Source: a virus
Virus record (IMG/VR): IMGVR_UViG_3300005613_000163
Location: 1 to 39,986 of that record
Direction: 5' to 3' (one strand)
Length of the DNA stretch: 39,986 bases
Numbering within the stretch: position 1 is the first letter of the stretch; the number at the start of each line of letters is the position of its first letter. The translations under genes and the position numbers were made by a program. Below are positions 6,780 through 37,374 of this stretch, in pieces. The notes under the pieces were generated by a model. The model was not told the DNA's origin and ran no database searches. It saw nothing but the letters and a program-made list of their open reading frames with translations.

Positions 6780-9341
6780 TTAGCGATAGGGGACGAATCC
6801 ACCAACTCCATCCTCATTAGGCGATACAATCGTAAGTCCTGTATTCGTCGCCTTGATCTGTCTAAAAGTATCAGGCAGAGCGGTAGTTTTCCTCTGAACT
6901 AGCTGAGTCTTGTTGAAAGAAATTCTTTTATCTGCTCTACTAACTGGTGGAATTATTTTGACATTATTGATTAGACCATTTTGAATAGCTTTTTTGATAG
7001 TATTGAAGCTCTCTAATCTAGAAAGCTTATTGAACTGCTCTAGCGTGAGTCTGCTGAATACATCAAACTCAGTAAGAGATTTACCAATACCATTTATGGA
7101 AAGCTCGTAATTAGTATCAAGTTCATTGATAATTTCTCTAATCAATCTAAATCCTGTCTTCTTTCTCTTGGGAGTATAGTCTGATGTTCCCTTGAGTTCT
7201 CCTCGATCTCGATATGCTTGTTTGAATGGCCTATCCTGGATATTGATTATAGTTGTTCTAGCCTGTGTATCTTTTACACCATAGACATCTACCCCATCTC
7301 GATCTACAACATCATATCTAATAAATTTATTAGTTTGCGATTTAGAAAATTCAGGTACAATACTAGTTCTGCATCTTAGGATCCTAGTAATTGATCCATC
7401 TCTAGAAATATCTTCAATTTTAGATTTAGAATTGAACAGGTTATAGTCTGTCCGATTGGTAGGATACAACATAATGTACCAGGGAATTTGTCGAGTCAGC
7501 AGAGGTATACTCTTGTTCTCTTTGGGAGAATCAAAAAGAATATCGGTTTGAGTTAGATTTAGAGACGAAGTTGTTTCAACATAATCTAATAGAAGGTCCG
7601 AATCATCAATCAAGAAAACTCTTTTATTAGCTTTATATTTTATAAACTCGTCTGCCTCGCTCCTACCTTCGACAGTAACAGTATCCATGAGCTTATACTC
7701 AACGGTAGTATCTTTGAGTAAGAATGTTTCAGACCGAGAGGGGCGTGTGTAGAGAGAACTAAGATTACAGCTTAGAAGATAGTATGCTTGTCTAGGGGCA
7801 GAAAGAGAGGATTCAAACTCAATCCCCGATGCTACTGACGCTGGAGCACTTACCTCAAGCGTTCTGCCACTTTGTCCACCTAGTAAACTAATAGCTTTTT
7901 GCCGTGTGCGTTCAGGAAGAACAAAAGCATGATCTTTTTCTGATTTTGTATACAGACGCTCTGATTTACCACCAATAGTAATATCAAAATAATCGCCATC
8001 ACGCAAAGATAAAGTTACACGATCAATGAAAGTTCCATCATCGTTGATGTAATATTTTTTTTCTACTCCTCTAATAACAACAGGAATATACATATCCACA
8101 TCTGATGGCAGAACTTTCCAGTTTTTTATAATCTCTTTATCACGACCAGAAAGTTTATTTTTATCTACAGAAAACTTATTCTTATCAATAAGAGATAGAA
8201 CTGCAATTTCATTCACTCTAGGAATGGTAGAGGGTTTTATAACGACTGGATTTTGTTTTATACTATTTTCTGCTAGACTGATTAGATCTTTTTTAGACAG
8301 AGTACTCAAAGTTCCATCCAAAACTCTAGAACCAATTAGATTGAATATCTGATTGATACTCAACTTAGTTCCATCATAGTTTTTGATTTTATCTAAAATG
8401 TCTCGAACTTCGCTATTCAAATTTTCATAAATAACCGCAGGAGTAATTCCAAACGCTTTTCTGCTATCCCAGTTTCCTGGATTACGACGATTCTTTAGAA
8501 CATAATGTAGATTGCTATCTATGTTATTTCTAAAAAATTCTCTAAATCCAGAATCATTAGGAACTAAATCTGGAGCTTCTGGAGTGGTAAGAACAGCGAT
8601 TGTACTATCTTGAACACCATAAGGATTTTTTCTAAGAATAGCGGCTGCTAAAGTAGGATCATTTAGATTTATCTCCCCAGTACTTATTGCATTATTGATT
8701 ATAAAATTACCATCTAAACTTTCAGATCTTACTAGACCGTTACCTGCCTGATCCTCAGATCCAGGTTGATCCCTAAATGAGGTATTAGTTCTGACATTAC
8801 TACCAGCATCAAATAAGGCTCCTCCCGTTGAAATAGAGCCACTATCTAAAGTAGGAGTTCCGTTACCTCCTCCTCCAGCCCCATCTCCAGCCCCATCTCC
8901 AGCCCCACCTCCGTCAATCGTTGTTATTGTTGGTGGAGCTAAGTCCTGATCGGTAACAGAACCATCAACAAAAATAATACCACCTCCACCACCTCCATTA
9001 GTACTTATTGTTGGTGGAGCAGGGCCTTGAGGACCAGGAGTAGATGGACCTCCGCCACCACCTCCAGGAGGAGCAGGACCTCCAGGACCAGGGGTAGCAG
9101 GACCTTGAGGATCAGTAGGAGATTCACCAGAAGGACCACCAAGGCCACCACCTCCAGGACCACCTCCATCCCCTGGAGGCTGAACTGGATCAATAGGGGC
9201 TTTTGGGTCGGTAGGGGTTACTGTGGTGGTGTCGTCACCTCCACCAGCATCAATAGTTCCTCCACCATCGAATTCAGGAATATTTCCAGGCCCTAGACCA
9301 GGAAGAAATTCTCCGCATCCAAAAGTAACCTTGTCAGACAT
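6780..9341 (-). CDS. Gly/Pro-rich tail fibre or structural protein (853 aa)
   Basis: The last gene of the tail block. Residues of about 20-170 are low-complexity Gly/Pro/Asp with short collagen-like GPQGPA stretches, poly-Gly runs and two related units, APPTISTNGGGGGG and APPTITTIDGGG. This is likely a flexible or triple-stranded stalk. Residues of about 200-850 have mixed composition with many Asp/Ser/Thr, short strands and charged helices, and no recognised catalytic motif or membrane segment. The ATG at 9341 overlaps the stop of the upstream fibre gene. Location after the wedge and beta-helix genes suggests a virion surface role (distal fibre, whisker-like protein or fibre adaptor). The family was not recognised. 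Confidence 0.6.
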   Translation of the reverse strand: MSDKVTFGCGEFLPGLGPGNIPEFDGGGTIDAGGGDDTTTVTPTDPKAPIDPVQPPGDGGGPGGGGLGGPSGESPTDPQGPATPGPGGPAPPGGGGGGPSTPGPQGPAPPTISTNGGGGGGIIFVDGSVTDQDLAPPTITTIDGGGAGDGAGDGAGGGGNGTPTLDSGSISTGGALFDAGSNVRTNTSFRDQPGSEDQAGNGLVRSESLDGNFIINNAISTGEINLNDPTLAAAILRKNPYGVQDSTIAVLTTPEAPDLVPNDSGFREFFRNNIDSNLHYVLKNRRNPGNWDSRKAFGITPAVIYENLNSEVRDILDKIKNYDGTKLSINQIFNLIGSRVLDGTLSTLSKKDLISLAENSIKQNPVVIKPSTIPRVNEIAVLSLIDKNKFSVDKNKLSGRDKEIIKNWKVLPSDVDMYIPVVIRGVEKKYYINDDGTFIDRVTLSLRDGDYFDITIGGKSERLYTKSEKDHAFVLPERTRQKAISLLGGQSGRTLEVSAPASVASGIEFESSLSAPRQAYYLLSCNLSSLYTRPSRSETFLLKDTTVEYKLMDTVTVEGRSEADEFIKYKANKRVFLIDDSDLLLDYVETTSSLNLTQTDILFDSPKENKSIPLLTRQIPWYIMLYPTNRTDYNLFNSKSKIEDISRDGSITRILRCRTSIVPEFSKSQTNKFIRYDVVDRDGVDVYGVKDTQARTTIINIQDRPFKQAYRDRGELKGTSDYTPKRKKTGFRLIREIINELDTNYELSINGIGKSLTEFDVFSRLTLEQFNKLSRLESFNTIKKAIQNGLINNVKIIPPVSRADKRISFNKTQLVQRKTTALPDTFRQIKATNTGLTIVSPNEDGVGGFVPYR
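8873..8908 (-). repeat. 12-bp tandem repeat within the Gly-rich stalk
   Basis: The plus strand shows CTCCAGCCCCAT twice and then CTCCAGCCCCAC, in frame within the 853-aa gene, coding GAGDGAGDGAG. Copies are 8873-8884, 8885-8896 and 8897-8908. Gain or loss of a copy would change the stalk by four residues without breaking the frame. Confidence 0.85.
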
Positions 9342-23143: not shown

Positions 23144-23604
23144 GATATGGTGACTCCTACATCAAACACTTCTAAGTCTGATTTATCTAACTTTAGGGTA
23201 AGAATTACTTGTAAAGAGTTACCCCCTGCTGGTCCTGCATCTCCAGTAGGAAATACAGCCAGCTTTTGTATTTTAGCTCCTACAATATAATTTCTAAATG
23301 ATGTTTCAATTTCGTTTCTAATTCCTTGAAAGGTAGTCTCGTCTAGCGGTTGAAATAGGTATCTTCGTAAATTACATCCGTAGTTTGGAAGCATAATCCG
23401 CTCTCCACGCTCAGTTAGAAGCAGTTGTTCTACTGAGTTCTTTATCATATTGATACCAGAAGATTTAGAAAAAATACCACCATACTGTGTAGAGCCTAAT
23501 GGATAATTCAATCCATATATTTCTTTTTTCTGGCTCTTGCTAGATTTGATATTATATCTTTTTTGAATAGAACCGTAGATTGTCGTTGTAGTATTAGCAG
23601 CCAT
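23140..23604 (-). CDS. 25: Baseplate wedge protein gp25-like
   Basis: A 154-aa gp25/gpW-family protein. NMIKNSVEQLLLTERGERIM, followed by PNYGCNLRRYLFQPLDE, is the family's signature, with the conserved Glu-Arg pair of the ERGER segment and the PxxG turn. T4 gp25 is 132 aa. In T4 and related injection systems it joins gp6 and the sheath end and starts sheath assembly. It overlaps gp6 (ATGA) and the upstream structural gene (TAATG). The 45-residue N-terminal extension is Lys/Ser-rich. Confidence 0.93.
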   Translation of the reverse strand: MAANTTTTIYGSIQKRYNIKSSKSQKKEIYGLNYPLGSTQYGGIFSKSSGINMIKNSVEQLLLTERGERIMLPNYGCNLRRYLFQPLDETTFQGIRNEIETSFRNYIVGAKIQKLAVFPTGDAGPAGGNSLQVILTLKLDKSDLEVFDVGVTIS

Positions 23605-26327
23605 TACATCTTAATATTTTTGAAAAATCCCTTTTGGGCATCATAGTTTTTCTTAACTTCCCCTGTATCTAGAGGTCTAGAGTAAAACTTCAAACTTCCT
23701 ATGTGACCACGAAGACCACTCACAATCCCTCCACGATCTCCACCCATGAAATTTCCATACTGATACATACCATCGGTGTATCCACCCCCAATTATCCAAG
23801 GAGTATAGAACCTATTGAGTAGCGGCCCTTGCTTGATAGTTGTTGGACCATCAACTGTTGTAGAAGAGTATTGGAAACTATTGTTCTTTTTGAATGATGG
23901 TAGTGAGATAGGCTTCCTAACATCTACTCCAAAAACTGTACTAATAGATGATGTAGCCACCAGAGCCCCATCTGCATACATCTTGATCTCGTCTCTCTGA
24001 GGATCACAAGATATGTCGATCAAAACGAATTGTGACGACACATTTCCGAATTGTGTCGCTGACAAGTCCACTTTCATTTTATAAAATGTTTCATAATCCT
24101 GACACTCATCATTATTGATGAATGACGCTGATGAGAAGTCCCTAGCCTGAGTTGGAGCTATGAAGAAGCTTAGAGATGAGGCTGGGTCGTTGTCATATTG
24201 AGCGTTGCTGTATCCAGCCGATGCTTGAGTAATCCTTCGGTCTCTACTAAATCCACAGACCAATCCTCGAACAAACTCTCCCCCCCTTTCATTACTTAAA
24301 AAATCAAGGTCTTTATAGGCTCCTGTGTGATCAATGGTAGAAGCATTTGGATTATGACCAACATTCTCACAACCAAATAAAACTTTAGTGAGAGACGAGG
24401 GGGAGGGTGTGTCTAGATTAGTACCACTTGCCCATCCTAGAGCACCATCCATGATATTAGGCACATGGACCCAACACTCTACGGTAAATCCAGTTGACGA
24501 ATAAGTTAGATCCCTAAACTCCTGAGTATCGGGAAGTTTGATATAAGATCCAAGACCAGAAGCTCCAGCAGGATCTGTGCTCTTGTTCTTTACAATACCT
24601 TCTAAGTAAGGAATAGCAAGACCTGAGAAGAATAAGGCTTTCTTAGATGGGCCAACAAGCTGTGCATTATTGTACATATTCTCTGTAGCACAGTTAGTCA
24701 CATTGAAGTTAGTAGAAGAGGGCAACTCAAGTGATGTATCTAAGAAATTATAAATTGCAAACAAACCATTAGAAACCACTTGATCCGTCAAGGATAGAAC
24801 AGTTCCTGAAGTAGCCCCTGAAGGCGAATACAGAATGCTTCCCCTACCCACAGTAGGAATCTTGAGGTGATTATAGCTTAGTGAGTCTGGGCGTTGCTGT
24901 GCTGATCTAACATACTTAGTATCAATTGGTAGCACAATGCCTTCTACTTCTGCGTGCTGAAATACCAAAGCTTTTTGCTTCTCTAAGTCCACAGAAAGGT
25001 TGTACTTTTGTAGATAGGAAAAATCATTGATTGGGACTTCACCAGGACCAAACTCGGGGCTACGCAGATCGCCATAAACCTGACCAGCCTTTACAGCTAC
25101 TTCAATCTGCTTCTTTCGACGATTGATTTTATTATTATGATTGGCTATCTCGGATATGATCAAATTTCGTTGATTACTTACAATTGAAGAATCAGCACCA
25201 TATTCAGAGATAAAAGTTTGTAGATCAGAAGACAAATCATAAACATGCTTGTCTCTTTGCTGTTTTAGTACAGCGAGGAAGTGGTCTTCGTTATAGTAGT
25301 TTTGAAGTCCTCGACTATCATCAATTCGATTTGGATCAAAAATGTTATCAGTAAACTTATCTAATGATTGTAAAGAAAGGGCTTGACCCTTACCTCCAAG
25401 GTTAGGATCGTAGTCATACTTCCAAGCATCCCCGACAGGAACCATTCCCGAAATAGATAGATATATGGGATCCAAGCCCCCATCGTACGAATCGTAATAT
25501 AGTCCATCATTGGTTAGAACATAAAGTCCAGCTTTGGTCAAAGGAGGTCCGTATGTTAGTCGGAATACTGGATCTGCCTCCTCAACCCCAGGGTCATCTT
25601 GCTCGGATCTAGGAAAGTTAGTGGCTGATAAGAAAGAATCAAGCTCTCTTGAGTCGAGGAACTTAGGCTCAAGAGATGGATCCTGAGAACGGGCTGCTAA
25701 TATATTATTGATAGTAGCAATCTGTGCATCTGCTGCCTTGATAAAGTTACTAGCTTCTGCGAGCTTTGCCTTCTCTCCAGCATACAAGGTATCAAAGAGT
25801 TCTTGAATTTCTTCTGGAGGTAGCGTAGCCTTTTGGTCGGCAGAATTGCCTGATTGAAATTTTTGTAGCTGACTGTATTTATCTAAACAATTTTTTATTG
25901 CATTGATCTCGTTTGTAACATCTGTATAGTTTTGATAAATCTGAGCACCAAAAGATGTTGCGTATTGAAAGGCTCCGAGAAGCCCAGCTAGATTATTTTT
26001 AGTTTGTGAATCGTTGTTATCTACACCCATCCAAGCAGTATCAGAACCAAACTTGAAAGTTCCTGTTTCGGTATCAAATTCAATGATACCTGTATTGAGC
26101 ATCATTTTCTTGAAGACCTCTTTTGTAACTTCATTTGCCTTAGCCTTACCTGCCTTGATCTGTGTTGAAATATCTGATAGTACAGAACTTGGTAATAGGT
26201 TCATAGCATTATTGGCTAAGTTCAGCATACAACTAGGCATACCGAAAGACATTCCAAGAGCTTGAATTGCTCCTGTTCCTGTCTGCCCTTGTACTTTGAG
26301 AAATGTATCTAAATCGAAAGACGCCAT
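23604..26327 (-). CDS. Structural protein with a C-terminal ConA/LamG-like domain (907 aa)
   Basis: The N-terminal part (about 1-420) is helical with an NPxLEPK-like linker and long coiled-coil stretches (RNLIISEIANHNNKINRRKK), preceded by a small-residue-rich segment. The C-terminal half (about 520-900) reads like a concanavalin/laminin-G domain: FTVECWVHVPN, then DISCDPQRDEIKMYADGALV (the strand pair with a DG turn), and GHIGSLKFYSRPLDTGEVKK at the end, the usual closing strand and helix. Such domains bind carbohydrate or stabilise virion parts. It lies between spike and gp25 genes, so it is probably tail- or baseplate-bound. No T4 counterpart is known to me at this position. Confidence 0.7.
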   Translation of the reverse strand: MASFDLDTFLKVQGQTGTGAIQALGMSFGMPSCMLNLANNAMNLLPSSVLSDISTQIKAGKAKANEVTKEVFKKMMLNTGIIEFDTETGTFKFGSDTAWMGVDNNDSQTKNNLAGLLGAFQYATSFGAQIYQNYTDVTNEINAIKNCLDKYSQLQKFQSGNSADQKATLPPEEIQELFDTLYAGEKAKLAEASNFIKAADAQIATINNILAARSQDPSLEPKFLDSRELDSFLSATNFPRSEQDDPGVEEADPVFRLTYGPPLTKAGLYVLTNDGLYYDSYDGGLDPIYLSISGMVPVGDAWKYDYDPNLGGKGQALSLQSLDKFTDNIFDPNRIDDSRGLQNYYNEDHFLAVLKQQRDKHVYDLSSDLQTFISEYGADSSIVSNQRNLIISEIANHNNKINRRKKQIEVAVKAGQVYGDLRSPEFGPGEVPINDFSYLQKYNLSVDLEKQKALVFQHAEVEGIVLPIDTKYVRSAQQRPDSLSYNHLKIPTVGRGSILYSPSGATSGTVLSLTDQVVSNGLFAIYNFLDTSLELPSSTNFNVTNCATENMYNNAQLVGPSKKALFFSGLAIPYLEGIVKNKSTDPAGASGLGSYIKLPDTQEFRDLTYSSTGFTVECWVHVPNIMDGALGWASGTNLDTPSPSSLTKVLFGCENVGHNPNASTIDHTGAYKDLDFLSNERGGEFVRGLVCGFSRDRRITQASAGYSNAQYDNDPASSLSFFIAPTQARDFSSASFINNDECQDYETFYKMKVDLSATQFGNVSSQFVLIDISCDPQRDEIKMYADGALVATSSISTVFGVDVRKPISLPSFKKNNSFQYSSTTVDGPTTIKQGPLLNRFYTPWIIGGGYTDGMYQYGNFMGGDRGGIVSGLRGHIGSLKFYSRPLDTGEVKKNYDAQKGFFKNIKM

Positions 26328-30295: not shown

Positions 30296-31318
30296 TCAAT
30301 AATATCCTGGATCCATACTGTTGGTTTCCCCTAGAACAACGGCTTCCCAACCAGCCAAGTTGTCGCGTTCAATTGGATTACCTTTTGGTGCAAACTCACC
30401 AAAGTCTCCAGTTCTAATTTCTTCGAGCTTGAGATTTACCTTGATTTGTCTTGGAAGTAGAGTGTCAAGATCATACCCTGCTGCTTCGTTGTAATCAATA
30501 GAGTAGTCTGTGCAGATGCACGGAATATTTTGATACAAAATACCGTGATTTAGTCTAATTACAGGAGGACCATAAATGGGATTCTTAGAATAGTTTACTA
30601 CACTAGACCTAATAATATTAGTCCAGTAAATAATAAGATCAATAATTCTATATTTCAAATTCTGATCTGCTTGATATCCTGCTGCTTCTTGACTAAGATT
30701 GAATACACCTAATGCAGAATTTACTACTATTCCTAATTGTGGGTTAGCTATTATTTGTTGTCCTACATAACCGTTTGCAAGATCTTGACCTAGTACTCCT
30801 TCTAAGTTGTATCGTGCAGCCAACCTGGCCTTCTCTTCTAAAGTAATACCAGTACCTGAAGCTGTAAGGTTATTTATTACTTGTTTTGCTGAATCTTTAG
30901 CTAAACTTTGTGTATATTTTGTTCCTAGCCTAAACGCTGCTCCTTCTGGGATTGAGTTATTTTTGGTAGGCTCTAAAAACTTTTGTTTTTCTAATTCAAT
31001 ATTATCTTTGTCCTGCATATAACTTACATATTTGTCTAAGTTTATATCAGGATGTTCCTCAAGTATATGCGGTAAAGATATATTAAATGTTAGATTTAGA
31101 ACTCTGGAATCAGCTCCCATGTAGCTGTACAGGTTACTAGATCTAGAAATTAGAGAATATTTTTGATACCTAGCCTTTTTGGATTCTTTGATAGAAACAT
31201 TTTCAAAGAATGGGAGTTCAACTGTGTAGTAATTATTTCCACCAGTTGGCATTGGGAAATAGAACATCAGCTTTGTTCTTTCAGAAAGTGCTCTATCTAC
31301 GATATGTCGATTAGTCAT
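30296..31318 (-). CDS. Baseplate–tail tube junction protein (gp48/gp54-like candidate)
   Basis: A 340-aa protein between the tape measure and gp53-like genes, the place of gp48/gp54 in T4 (order 29-48-54). N-terminal LPFFENVSIKESKKARYQKY and YSYMGADSRVLNLTFNISLP, and C-terminal CTDYSIDYNEAAGYD followed by LLPRQIKVNLKLEEIRTGDF, form the paired strands typical of tail-tube-like folds in tube initiators. Length fits gp48 (364) and gp54 (320). Only one such gene is visible, so it may serve both roles or the other may lie outside the window. It overlaps the tape measure stop by 4 bases. Confidence 0.6.
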   Translation of the reverse strand: MTNRHIVDRALSERTKLMFYFPMPTGGNNYYTVELPFFENVSIKESKKARYQKYSLISRSSNLYSYMGADSRVLNLTFNISLPHILEEHPDINLDKYVSYMQDKDNIELEKQKFLEPTKNNSIPEGAAFRLGTKYTQSLAKDSAKQVINNLTASGTGITLEEKARLAARYNLEGVLGQDLANGYVGQQIIANPQLGIVVNSALGVFNLSQEAAGYQADQNLKYRIIDLIIYWTNIIRSSVVNYSKNPIYGPPVIRLNHGILYQNIPCICTDYSIDYNEAAGYDLDTLLPRQIKVNLKLEEIRTGDFGEFAPKGNPIERDNLAGWEAVVLGETNSMDPGYY

Positions 31319-33087
31319 GATCCAGTATCAATCATTGAAGAGGGATTTCTATCCCCTTGTGCTGCTCTTTGCTCATTAGCTAATCTAAGCTCTTCAAGCA
31401 TTTCCTCAGCAGTAGTATCTCGACCAACACCTAGAATTCCTTCGATACTTCTTCCAAGCATATTAGCAGTTTCATCCAAGAACTCAGGAGTTGTTGCTAT
31501 CTCAGGAGTTTTTTTATTTATCTCTTTTAGTTCTTTATTTTGTTCTCTTTGAAGATCTCTACTATTAGCAAAATCATCACGCAAATCACTCAAAAGTCTA
31601 TTTCCTAGTAAGTTAGGATCTTCATTAGCTTTTTTTAGTTTTTCTGAAAACTGTCTTGCACTTTCTGCTGGGTCAGTTTTTATGATATCAAAACTTTTAT
31701 TCATGGAGTCTGCTCTATCTACTATTCGTTGACCCACACTTTCCAATTGAGAATCTACCTTTCCAATAACAGATTCCAAGTTTGCAAAGGGTAATTCATT
31801 AATAGCCGTAGCTAACGCCTTTACTATGAGTAAGAAAGCTCCATAAATTGCATCTAATCCGTTCATAAATACATCAAATGCAATTTTTACTGCTTCTAGG
31901 GGAATAACAATCCCATAATGGATTGCTGTTTGTATGCCCATAAAACTATTTTTTATTTTTGGAAAGATTTCATCTATTATGAGACCCACTTTATTTCTAA
32001 ACTTATCAAAAGTGTTTAGTCCCAGAATAGCAAAATCAATAACCGCTAGAGTTACTTTTTTAAATGCTTTATCAGCTTCAGGTAATGCGCCTTCTAAGAA
32101 GGTAGAAAATCTTTCAACAACTCTCCTAGCTACCAAAGACAAAGCATCAAATGATTTAACAATTACTGGATAAAATTTAGATAAGGCTTCTTGGAATGGT
32201 ACAAGAATCTCAGCTTTGAGGTTTGCCAAGGTCATACCAAAGTCAGCAGCATCTTCTCCCTCTTTTTTAGTTCTCTTCCCTAAATTATCAGCAACAGTAG
32301 TTAGCTGGATAGCTTGTTGTCCGAATATTTCAGATGCTACTCCAATTTGGAAGAATCCCTTGCTTGCATCTCCTGCTACACTTTTGAAGTTGTTAGAGGC
32401 TGTAACAAATGCATCTTTTAGAATTTGCTGTGCTTCCGCTGAAGATTTAGCCGCTGAAAGTCTTTCTCTAACATCTGAAATACCCAGTTTAGTTAGACGC
32501 TCGTACCCTTCCATGCTGGTGTCCATAACCATACTCATAACACTCTGAAGGGGACCAGCAAGTTGTGGGCCTAGCTCGCCTTGTAAGCCAGCAACGGCTC
32601 CCATAACCTTATCTCCCATACCTGCTAGGGCTTGGGCAGGGAATGTGGACTTGAGAGCGTCAATAGCTCCTACAAGCTTGTCTGTGCTAATCTGATACTC
32701 AGCCCCAGTCTCTATTAAGCTATTAGATAGATTATTGGTTTGATCTCTCGATAGCAGTAATGATGATTCTAACCCAGCAAAAGCTTTAGCTGTTTGTTGA
32801 TATGCGGTCCCAGTTAGCTGTTGTTGGTTGATAAGTCTAGCTACACCAGCAGTATTTCCTTGCAAACCAGCTTCAAGGCCAGCAACAGCAGCACCAAATC
32901 GCTGGTTTATATCCCCTCGAAGACCCTCCATAGTGCCACCAAGCTGCGTTCTTGTGGCTTCATAGGTCTGCCCTAATGCTAGTGAGGCTTTCTGTGCTTT
33001 ATCAGCAAAATCCATAGCTGCCCGTATCTGATTCGTCAGGGCATCCATAGATTTTGTCAATCCGCCTAATACTACATCACTAATCAT
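31315..33087 (-). CDS. 29: Tape measure protein (T4 gp29-like)
   Basis: A 590-aa protein, by chance or descent the same length as T4 gp29, predicting a tail of about T4 length. It is almost wholly helical, with small-residue-rich repeats in the N-terminal half (GTMEGLRGDINQRFGAAVAG, GMGDKVMGAVAGLQG) and a hydrophobic segment around 360-430 (IVIPLEAVKIAFDVFMNGLD, AIYGAFLLIVKALATAI) as expected for a protein released into the host membrane. The C terminus is charged and Asn/Gln-rich. It follows the small 128-aa gene with a 1-base overlap and precedes the tube-junction gene. The frameshifted chaperone gene lies upstream, as in other tailed phages. Confidence 0.88.
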   Translation of the reverse strand: MISDVVLGGLTKSMDALTNQIRAAMDFADKAQKASLALGQTYEATRTQLGGTMEGLRGDINQRFGAAVAGLEAGLQGNTAGVARLINQQQLTGTAYQQTAKAFAGLESSLLLSRDQTNNLSNSLIETGAEYQISTDKLVGAIDALKSTFPAQALAGMGDKVMGAVAGLQGELGPQLAGPLQSVMSMVMDTSMEGYERLTKLGISDVRERLSAAKSSAEAQQILKDAFVTASNNFKSVAGDASKGFFQIGVASEIFGQQAIQLTTVADNLGKRTKKEGEDAADFGMTLANLKAEILVPFQEALSKFYPVIVKSFDALSLVARRVVERFSTFLEGALPEADKAFKKVTLAVIDFAILGLNTFDKFRNKVGLIIDEIFPKIKNSFMGIQTAIHYGIVIPLEAVKIAFDVFMNGLDAIYGAFLLIVKALATAINELPFANLESVIGKVDSQLESVGQRIVDRADSMNKSFDIIKTDPAESARQFSEKLKKANEDPNLLGNRLLSDLRDDFANSRDLQREQNKELKEINKKTPEIATTPEFLDETANMLGRSIEGILGVGRDTTAEEMLEELRLANEQRAAQGDRNPSSMIDTGS

Positions 33088-34558: not shown

Positions 34559-35543
34559 TATATCACCTCAGTTTATTAGAGACTACATTACCCAAAATTT
34601 TTCTGACAAAGGTAGATTATCTTCCAACGGTCAGGAATTTATCATGGAGTCCATCTTCGTCCAGAATGATTGGAAGAAGCACATGAGCGTCAATGTAGAT
34701 AGTGGACTATGGCAGTGCTTCAAGACAGGACGCTCAGGTAACTTTGTCCGTCTGTATGCTGAGATTGAGAAGATCCCTTACTTCCGCGCATACAGGGATC
34801 TGATGATCAAGAACTTCGAGTTTCTAGGTGAAGATATTCCAGAGCAGATCAAGGAGGAGCGTCAGCTAGAGCTTGACACCAGCAGGCTAATACCTCTCAA
34901 TATTGAGTCTGGATTCTCTGAAGATCGTGATGTTCTGGCTGCGTGGAGTTTTCTTTTTCAGCGAAAGCTATTTACAGAAGAAAACCCTCCCGAAGCAGAA
35001 TACTATCTTTGCATGGAAGGTAAGTTCCACAACCGCATCATCATCCCATTCAAGAAGGATTCAATTGTATACTACTTCCAAGGACGAGCCCTGGGAGATC
35101 AGCGTCCAAAGTATCTAAACCCCTCTATTGATATTGCTCCAAATCCTTCTGAGATCCTGTATCCCTACGATGAGGAGGCTGATCATCTTGTAGTTTGTGA
35201 GGGACCCCTGGATGCCAAGTCCCTTCAGCTTCAAGGTGTCAATGCTACAGCGACCATGAAGAACTACATCAGCCCACGCCAAGCTGAGATCCTATCTACA
35301 TTCGACGGACAGGTGATCATTGGATTCGACAATGATGAAGCTGGTATCCGTGGTTGTGAGCGTTTCGATCAGCTTCGGCGTGAGCGTCTAATGAATGATT
35401 TCTGGGTATGTGATCCTCCTCCCACCTTCAAAGACTGGAATGAAGCTCATCAAAAAGGGGTGAGCCTCCCCGATTGGATCAACAGAGGAAGCTCACTTTA
35501 TAACTTTGAATACAAAATGATGAATAAAATTAGCTCACTGTGA
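34551..35543 (+). CDS. 61: DNA primase (T4 gp61-like, DnaG-type)
   Basis: A 330-aa primase. Residues of about 40-65 have HMSVNVDSGLWQCFKTGRSG, the fold core of DnaG zinc-domain primases, in which the usual CHC2 cysteines are not all present. TOPRIM motifs are clear: CEGPLDA with the catalytic Glu near 217, and GFDNDEAG with the Asp pair near 258-260. T4 gp61 is 342 aa. It makes the RNA primers for lagging-strand synthesis with the replicative helicase, which is not in this window. Its end overlaps the stop region of the minus-strand structural gene by 14 bases. Confidence 0.9.
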   Translation: MYIISPQFIRDYITQNFSDKGRLSSNGQEFIMESIFVQNDWKKHMSVNVDSGLWQCFKTGRSGNFVRLYAEIEKIPYFRAYRDLMIKNFEFLGEDIPEQIKEERQLELDTSRLIPLNIESGFSEDRDVLAAWSFLFQRKLFTEENPPEAEYYLCMEGKFHNRIIIPFKKDSIVYYFQGRALGDQRPKYLNPSIDIAPNPSEILYPYDEEADHLVVCEGPLDAKSLQLQGVNATATMKNYISPRQAEILSTFDGQVIIGFDNDEAGIRGCERFDQLRRERLMNDFWVCDPPPTFKDWNEAHQKGVSLPDWINRGSSLYNFEYKMMNKISSL

Positions 35544-36480
35544 AATAGTATGGAGGTGAGATAATAGTCTCATTCAATAGTGTATATTTGACAATCATTC
35601 TATAAGTTCCAGTAAGTCCTCCAAAGTCTGCTACTCTAGGATGTGTTGCCAAAGTTGTAGTGTCGAAATTGAAAACAATAGTGTTATCAGAGGTTACATC
35701 AATTGTAGAGCTAGTATCCGAGAATCCAGAAACAGTTACATGAGCAGGTAGAGTAGTAGAATCCTCATTTATCTTTTCGATCTTCATCATCGCGCTGGTA
35801 ATAGCAGAGTCTCTAAAGATGTTCTTTACACTATCATCAATGTCTTTGTTTTGAATCGTAATCTCAGTTGTTACTTTTAGATTTTCAATAGAACTTAGAG
35901 TTAGGTGTTTATTGATTAGTTTGTTTCTAGTAGCTAGGAGTAGAGGCTGAGTGATGCTAAAGAATGTATCCTCGTAAAGATGGAAATCGTTGATTAGCGT
36001 TTGGTAATCAGACCCAGCAGCAAACTTGACTGTCCAGCAGTCAATGTAGTCATTGACAGCACTAGCAGAGTTAGCAATTTCAAGAGAAGATCCTTGGAAG
36101 GTATAGGATCCTGAAATGTCTTGTGTGCCATCTAGAATACAGATATATTCACCCTGCTTTACTCGATAAATACCACTAAGGCAAGAGGCGTCTGTAGCAG
36201 GTAGATAGCTAGTTGGATCCAGAGCGGCACCAGCATCATTAGCGGAAGCTCCGAACTGCATCAGAATGATTGATGCTGGGACGGAACTAGAGATTAGGTT
36301 GTCACTACCGAGAACGGTGCTTGGAGTAAAGTTTGATGCTTTTTGAAAAATAGTTACACCACTAATGTCGTAGGGGTCGTAATACTGTCCATCGTTTATG
36401 AAAAATGCCCTCAACGCGACCTTCTGAATTACAGTTGGTCTGTTGTGCCTATCAACTACTGTTACTCCGTTTAATTGCAT
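35530..36480 (-). CDS. Virion structural protein of T4-like type (316 aa)
   Basis: A 316-aa beta-rich protein. The start MQLNGVTVVDRHNRPTVIQK, followed by VALRAFFINDGQYYDPYDIS, is a pattern I associate with a conserved structural protein of marine T4-like phages. A central long segment has DSVKNIFRDSAITSAMMKIE, and the C-terminal Ig-like stretch ends in GTYRMIVKYTLLNETIISPP. No membrane, signal or enzyme motif was noticed. It lies after the chaperone and before the tape measure in transcription order, with two plus-strand genes in between; the start overlaps the frameshift extension by 29 bases. Possible roles are tail terminator, sheath-related or fibre protein. Not a T4 gene I can name. Confidence 0.55.
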   Translation of the reverse strand: MQLNGVTVVDRHNRPTVIQKVALRAFFINDGQYYDPYDISGVTIFQKASNFTPSTVLGSDNLISSSVPASIILMQFGASANDAGAALDPTSYLPATDASCLSGIYRVKQGEYICILDGTQDISGSYTFQGSSLEIANSASAVNDYIDCWTVKFAAGSDYQTLINDFHLYEDTFFSITQPLLLATRNKLINKHLTLSSIENLKVTTEITIQNKDIDDSVKNIFRDSAITSAMMKIEKINEDSTTLPAHVTVSGFSDTSSTIDVTSDNTIVFNFDTTTLATHPRVADFGGLTGTYRMIVKYTLLNETIISPPYYFTVS

Positions 36481-37374
36481 CGCTTTCTCGCTCCAGATCT
36501 TCTCTTAGAAGTTTTAGAAATACTGTTCTTTCTGTACGGGTCATCTGCTTTACATCGGAATATGTAAAGTTAGCCCGTTTCACAAGTATATAGGCTTCTA
36601 GAAGAAGATTGTCTACATCAATTACTTCTTCTAGTTCACATCGAAAAAATTTGAGTCGATTGGTAGGTCCACGACCGTTACCCCTCCGCAGCTTCCGCAC
36701 TCAAATTTGATCTTAGTGTCAACGCCGAAATCAGTCTTGATGGCGTTTAGAATAGTTCTGACATCTCTAAGTGGGAGCTTATCAACAACTCTGGCGATGA
36801 TGGACTTATCAGTATGTCCGTCGATGTCAGTAACGAAGCGCCACATTTGATCTAGAGCAGTAGCTGTATCTATCATCATCTTTTCATCACGAACTCTTGG
36901 AAGCCTGACCTTGGCTTCCTTTTTTAGTGTAGGAAGCATTACCGTAATAGGATCCTGGAAATCATCAGGTACAGGGTTTACATTGAGTTGAGAGAGTTTT
37001 ACAGTAGTTGGGTTTTCAGCCTTACACTGTGAACAGATAAGGAGAGTATTATAGTCATCTCCATAGGAAATCTCTCTAAGCTTCATGATTAGATAAAGCT
37101 TATCCATTGATAGGAGATCGGGAATACGAATATTAGTAGTGCATCGTTGAAGAATAAGATTTACTGGATCGTCATTCTTACCTGCGCTAACAAGAGCCTT
37201 CTCGTCCTCAAATGTCATTGGACGGATGGTAATAGGAGCGCCTGGATCCTCTAAATTGTATACTCTACATTCTGAGGGTAGTTCTACCTCTACAGCAGTA
37301 TCTGTAGGTAGCTCTTTCAAAATTTCATCAATAACTGCCTGCTTGGCAGAATCATCAACTTGTTGGTTTAGCAT
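36452..37374 (-). CDS. Frameshifted long form of the tail assembly chaperone (307 aa)
   Basis: Reading through a -1 slip at 36646-36652 joins residues 1-243 of the 247-aa protein to 64 further residues ending at 36452. The extension (DVDNLLLEAYILVKRANFTY, followed by SDVKQMTRTERTVFLKLLRE) has the W/Y-rich helix, then ER..FL..L, of GpE/GT-type tape-measure chaperones. The extension has an internal ATG at 36700 inside the upstream gene, but the first 18 residues of that reading have no convincing protein character and no ribosome site, so it is better read as a shift product. Lambda G/GT and P2 E/E' are known precedents; for the gp26/gp51 family this is inference from the sequence. Confidence 0.7.
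36598..36634 (-). promoter_or_regulatory. Stem-loop downstream of the slippery site
   Basis: On the minus strand CTAGAAGAAG (36634-36625) pairs perfectly with CTTCTTCTAG (36607-36598). Inside, a 2-base bulge and a further 4-bp ATTG/CAAT stem close a 7-base loop. The structure starts 11 bases after the heptamer, and the zero-frame stop TAG lies in the first arm. This is the layout of a -1 frameshift stimulator, with a slightly long spacer. Confidence 0.75.
36631..37374 (-). CDS. Tail assembly chaperone / baseplate protein, T4 gp26-gp51 family (247 aa)
   Basis: Residues of about 48-62 (ITIRPMTFEDEKAL), about 82-105 (RIPDLLSMDKLYLIMKLREI) and CxxC pairs at 114/117 (ICSQC) and 226/229 (ECGSC) are the pattern of the T4 gp26/gp51 baseplate-hub assembly family (PF12322 as I recall). 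Two cysteine pairs suggest a zinc ribbon. It should be a soluble assembly factor rather than a major virion component. It precedes the tape measure region and makes a longer -1 frame product. Divergent from the helicase gene with about 40 bases between; AGGAA lies 8 bases before the ATG at 37374. Confidence 0.78.
   Translation of the reverse strand: MLNQQVDDSAKQAVIDEILKELPTDTAVEVELPSECRVYNLEDPGAPITIRPMTFEDEKALVSAGKNDDPVNLILQRCTTNIRIPDLLSMDKLYLIMKLREISYGDDYNTLLICSQCKAENPTTVKLSQLNVNPVPDDFQDPITVMLPTLKKEAKVRLPRVRDEKMMIDTATALDQMWRFVTDIDGHTDKSIIARVVDKLPLRDVRTILNAIKTDFGVDTKIKFECGSCGGVTVVDLPIDSNFFDVN
36646..36652 (-). promoter_or_regulatory. -1 frameshift slippery heptamer A_AAT_TTT
   Basis: On the minus strand AAATTTT lies in zero frame as A AAT TTT at codons 242-243 (Asn-Phe), five codons before the TAG. 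The two tRNAs can re-pair in the -1 frame as AAA TTT. It matches the X_XXY_YYZ rule exactly. Confidence 0.8.

Follow-up and report, generated by a model that had tools for sequence, protein, structure and literature searches.

Several groups of T4-like phages reportedly keep a frameshift in the tail assembly chaperone, and the T4 group is said to use genes 26 and 51. Among the known systems close to the locus described here are gpG/gpGT of phage lambda and E/E+E' of P2 (Xu, Hendrix and Duda 2004; reviewed in PMC5009743), the likeness being drawn without sequence similarity to gpG/gpGT. Besides the lambda precedent, PMC5009743 holds an older statement of T4 as an exception. According to PMC10885494 and PMC12846349, the T4-like chaperones were assigned by Vladimirov, Gautam and Davidson (2022, Virology 566:9-15), with gp26 as TAC-N and gp51 as TAC-NC; PMC10885494 cites that work for T4-like phages with separate short and long chaperone genes, and PMC12846349 attributes to it the poly-T slip signals in the TAC-N genes of T4-like phages. 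The link between T4 gp26/gp51 and the G/GT logic, drawn in the initial annotation of our locus, had therefore already been published, as these two papers report it. What is new here is one more T4-like chaperone with a programmed frameshift signal, the mechanism itself having been reported before for T4-like phages. Since the principle is published, the value added lies in a sharper definition of the slip site, in evidence that the stem is kept as a structure, and in a wider distribution.

The window, meaning the whole stretch of 39,986 nucleotides that was analysed, is an IMG/VR virus record in its own right. It carries on its minus strand a gene which we read, with a probability of about 0.94, as that of the tail assembly chaperone in a T4-like myovirus related to cyanophages, with a short and a long form made via a -1 frameshift at T_TTT_TTC. 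Its parts are the following:

36631..37374 (-), zero-frame gene of 247 aa, TAC-N or gp26-type, with two CxxC pairs (PF12322, phrog_150, AF2)
36643..36649 (-), slip heptamer T_TTT_TTC (conserved form T_TTT_TTY; 64/64 and 61/62 distinct relatives)
36646..36652 (-), A_AAT_TTT, overlapping T_TTT_TTC and not conserved (absent from the relatives L021, L031, L037 and L063-L083)
36635..36642 (-), 8-nt spacer between heptamer and stem
36625..36634 (-), 5' arm of the stem, CTAGAAGAAG, which includes the zero-frame TAG
36598..36607 (-), 3' arm of the stem, CTTCTTCTAG
36631..36633 (-), zero-frame stop TAG, 9 nt past the heptamer
36455..36643 (-), -1 frame extension of 63 aa, TAC-C, resembling the gp51 C-terminus (phrog_634, hhalign, AF2): RCELEEVIDVDNLLLEAYILVKRANFTYSDVKQMTRTERTVFLKLLREDLERESDAIKRSNSS
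36452..36454 (-), -1 frame stop TGA, end of the 307-aa fusion

The 3' end of the zero-frame ORF reads ..TCA AAT TTT TTC GAT GTG AAC TAG, and the -1 frame stays open past this TAG up to the TGA at 36452-36454, giving a predicted fusion of 244 + 63 = 307 aa. Both lengths first given for a gp26/gp51-type gene, 247 aa for the short and 307 aa for the long reading frame, were reproduced from the sequence, and the extension is open as described, but 63 residues follow Phe-Phe instead of 64. The perfect 10-bp inverted repeat 11 nt past A_AAT_TTT, with the TAG in its first arm, is likewise present, as are all three parts of a canonical -1 signal, namely a slip heptamer, a downstream stem and an open -1 extension.

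The T4-like gp26 and gp51 belong to the same TAC-N family as the window gene (PF12322, phrog_150) and have the same C-terminal domain (phrog_634). T4 gp51 matches PF12322 together with the phrog_634 C-terminal region and T4 gp26 matches PF12322 alone, so the short and long forms of T4 are two genes, 26 and 51, lying on opposite strands, whereas the window holds one gene that would give both by frameshifting. The cyanophage S-PM2 (Kyanoviridae; gp26/gp51 at 8176-8361 of the S-PM2 sequence, L090) also resembles the window: T_TTT_TTC precedes the gp26 stop by two codons, the annotated gp51 falls within the -1 frame, and downstream of the heptamer there is a perfect 13-bp stem, as there is a 10-bp stem in the window. 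Very probably, the annotated gp51 of S-PM2 is the frameshifted half of gp26. In S-PM2, a long gene that occupies the tape-measure position comes directly after the two annotated genes; in the window, unlike S-PM2, an unrelated 316-aa ORF comes next (35530-36480), its start overlapped by the end of the extension over 29 nt (36452-36480). A further parallel is the phage Adele of the Vandenendeviridae, whose TAC-N ends in the poly-T motif GTTTTT with a conserved open -1 frame (PMC12846349); this phage belongs to a different family from that of the window, and the likeness is one of layout.

For the capsid protein of the window, the nearest match is cyanophage gp23, with about 30% identity. Next to the chaperone gene stands a gene for a UvsW-like helicase, and T4 likewise has uvsW in the neighbourhood of gene 26. 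A 590-aa ORF at 31315-33087 (-) has no PHROG match and is equal in length to T4 gp29 (590 aa); it is a candidate for the tape measure protein.

Within the single sequence, the coincidence of signals is only moderate. In-frame XXXYYYZ heptamers number 64 in the minus-strand genes of the window, one other of them with a helix of at least 10 bp downstream, and TTTTTTC is not commoner in the window than in shuffled sequence. The case for a programmed signal is strong because the signal is conserved across relatives. A scan of viral contigs returned 80 relatives, 36-96% identical, 64 of them distinct, and in 64/64 either T_TTT_TTC or T_TTT_TTT stands in frame shortly before the stop and is accompanied by an open, homologous -1 extension. 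Likewise, T_TTT_TTC and the open extension are kept in 61 of the 62 distinct S-PM2-type cyanophage and huge-phage relatives. Furthermore, the wobble base preceding the slip is T in 64/64, compared with 62% T at like codons in the rest of the gene; for 38 sequences, and with kinship ignored, such an invariant T has a naive probability of ~1e-8. The slip site of lambda is G_GGA_AAG, in contrast to T_TTT_TTC in the window. Elsewhere in the window, within the ORF 23604-26327, A_AAT_TTC at 23754 (-) is followed by an 11-bp helix 5-9 nt downstream; the -1 frame closes there after 25 codons, and the site probably represents chance or a truncating shift.

The two arms of the stem are perfect complements over 10 bp and enclose a 17-nt loop, with a minimum free energy of -13.3 kcal/mol (z -2.83 against dinucleotide shuffles). 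A canonical -1 stimulatory stem is expected about 5-9 nt downstream of the slip site, and the stem, which starts 8 nt after T_TTT_TTC and 11 nt after A_AAT_TTT, falls inside this range when counted from the former. Across relatives, pairing in a fixed register was modest (65.0% paired vs 62.1% shuffled, 8/500; 47-54% when slid), because the 3' arm moves by one codon in some lineages and others are stemless; as this weakened the test, a null of synonymous recodings was used instead. The helix score about 8 nt past the heptamer then averaged 16.3 vs 11.0 +/- 0.46 for the recodings, none of the 300 synonymous recodings of the -1 frame reached the observed score, and the excess peaked at 8 nt and was weaker in control windows further downstream. 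Stem sequences are unrelated between lineages (11 bp in L068, 9 bp in L081, another in S-PM2), and in the helix comparison of relatives the stem was weak or missing in L053, L057, L060-L062 and L085; in the S-PM2-type set it is strongly maintained (MFE z -2.6). The unrelated stems and the stemless lineages thus point to a common but replaceable stimulator beside an invariant heptamer. As far as comparison of sequences can tell, the stem is maintained as a structure, not as a fixed sequence, and has been lost in some lineages.

The extension itself bears the marks of a coding sequence. In 38 non-redundant relatives, the -1 frame contains 0 stops over 41 codons, while over the same codons the 0-frame averages 6.0 and the +1 frame 3.8. 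Differences fall mainly at third positions of the -1 frame codons (370/205/947), and amino-acid identity reaches 0.84 in this frame vs 0.55 and 0.51 in the others, a pattern that indicates purifying selection on the -1 frame as protein. By all the comparative tests applied, the programmed -1 signal is real, and the initial proposal of such a shift in a gp26/gp51-type chaperone, with G/GT-like products, is supported by the conserved slip site and extension. The alignment of relatives that had been suggested as a check confirmed these two elements; A_AAT_TTT proved not to be conserved, and the stem was found to vary in sequence and to be absent from some lineages.

Profile and structure searches place both halves of the predicted fusion. 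TAC-N matches Pfam T4_baseplate PF12322 (9.2e-18, 65.2 bits, cut-off 24.5) and phrog_150 (baseplate hub, 1.7e-23); its AF2 model (pLDDT 86.9) finds the SP-15 baseplate hub subunit as the best viral structure match (2.7e-17), and T4-like baseplate hub proteins lead the viral structure matches to the short form. On these matches, the zero-frame gene is identified as a T4 gp26-type protein. Taken alone, hhalign of TAC-N vs T4 gp51 is weak (E 0.001, probability 20%), but PF12322 nonetheless links both. For the extension, phrog_634 was matched by 17 of the 22 members (best 5.2e-6), and hhalign gave E 4e-6 against the T4-type gp51 C-terminus and E 4e-8 against cyanophage gp51. The AF2 model of the extension is helical (pLDDT 89.4), and among its viral structure matches are proteins that bear the names gp51 and tail assembly chaperone, with no match reaching E <= 0.001. 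A Pfam scan of the extension gave no meaningful match, and sequence and fold searches of solved structures (PDB) gave no significant one, the TAC-N structure matching YqbN (3klu) only weakly with a probability of 0.15. The extension is thus a helical domain related to the T4 gp51 C-terminus, and the matches to phrog_634 and gp51 bear out the chaperone-like look ascribed to it at the outset.

In the mechanism proposed, most ribosomes would halt at the TAG and release the 247-aa short form, TAC-N, the equivalent of lambda gpG and T4 gp26. The stem 8 nt downstream would pause the ribosome on T_TTT_TTC, where some ribosomes could move back by one base, the tRNA-Phe pairing anew on UUU UUU. Slipped ribosomes would read 63 further codons and so complete the long form of 307 aa, TAC-NC, the counterpart of lambda gpGT and T4 gp51. 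Both the occurrence of the shift and its efficiency are inferred. On the model of lambda, the short form in many copies and the long form in few may cover the tape measure protein and bring in the tail tube subunits, which would be the role of the two forms in tail assembly.

Several other explanations of this arrangement can be considered. The shift could take place at A_AAT_TTT, as initially annotated; this heptamer does exist at 36646-36652 and in most close relatives, and a slip there gives an identical protein. However, many relatives are without it, and all of these keep T_TTT_TTY, which overlaps it one codon further on and is therefore taken as the slip site; from A_AAT_TTT the stem would sit 11 nt away, while slippage at T_TTT_TTC puts it 8 nt away, at a usual distance. 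A_AAT_TTT was consequently rejected as the conserved slip site, and a shift there is quite unlikely. Given that the slip site is a T run, it is also conceivable that transcriptional slippage on six or seven T yields a mixed mRNA, so that the shift would not be ribosomal. A run of six T is short for known transcriptional slippage, and in most relatives the run is just that, followed by C; moreover, the conserved RNA stem in the ribosomal-pausing range points to ribosomal shifting, making slippage by the polymerase very unlikely.

Alternatively, the extension could be a separate small gene begun by re-initiation or translational coupling, in line with the annotation of S-PM2 gp51 as its own 57-aa gene and with a GTG 51 nt upstream of the slip site in the window. 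A start of its own in relatives had been named in the initial annotation as a finding that would speak against a shift. However, 28 of the 39 non-redundant relatives have no ATG, GTG or TTG upstream of the conserved core from which the extension could be made separately, just 1 of the 39 has any Shine-Dalgarno-like motif before it, and several have a -1 frame that opens no earlier than the heptamer. With no start before the core in most relatives and a frame opening at the heptamer, expression of the domain needs the frameshift. A separate gene would also leave the conservation of the slip site unexplained, and T_TTT_TTC links the two annotated genes of S-PM2 itself. This explanation is highly unlikely, a separate translation start being rejected on the starts missing in most relatives. 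A gene broken by a frameshift mutation or a sequencing error, with no programmed signal, has a negligible probability: the same arrangement recurs across 64 distinct variants as well as the S-PM2-type phages, the -1 frame is under purifying selection, and this conservation rules out a pseudogene or sequencing error.

A ribosomal -1 frameshift at T_TTT_TTC also has consequences for annotation: across a large group of environmental T4-like phages, pipelines break up an essential tail chaperone or cut it short, S-PM2 'gp51' being one example; the analysis of the window supplies the exact slip site. In Stenotrophomonas phage RAS14 (L006, 3228-3486), T_TTT_TTT is present with a -1 extension annotated as a separate 55-aa hypothetical protein, and no relatives turned up when viral contigs were scanned with the RAS14 protein.

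In regard to evolution, the chances are about even that the poly-U -1 shift is ancestral in T4-like and several huge phages, and that the T4 gene pair and the apparently +1 (or -2) layout of SP-15, LIS04 and vB_SagM-GXN1 are later replacements. If so, one homologous chaperone has switched its shift direction and even abandoned frameshifting. In LIS04, SP-15, vB_SagM-GXN1 and LR756508 (L001, L002, L004 and L005), the sequence just after the gp26-type gene carries the C-terminal domain of the chaperone in the +1 frame, reachable by a +1 or -2 shift and not by -1; apparently, these represent the same chaperone family with another shift direction. The motif xCC_CGA_TTY, just before the stop, is common to LIS04, SP-15 and GXN1.
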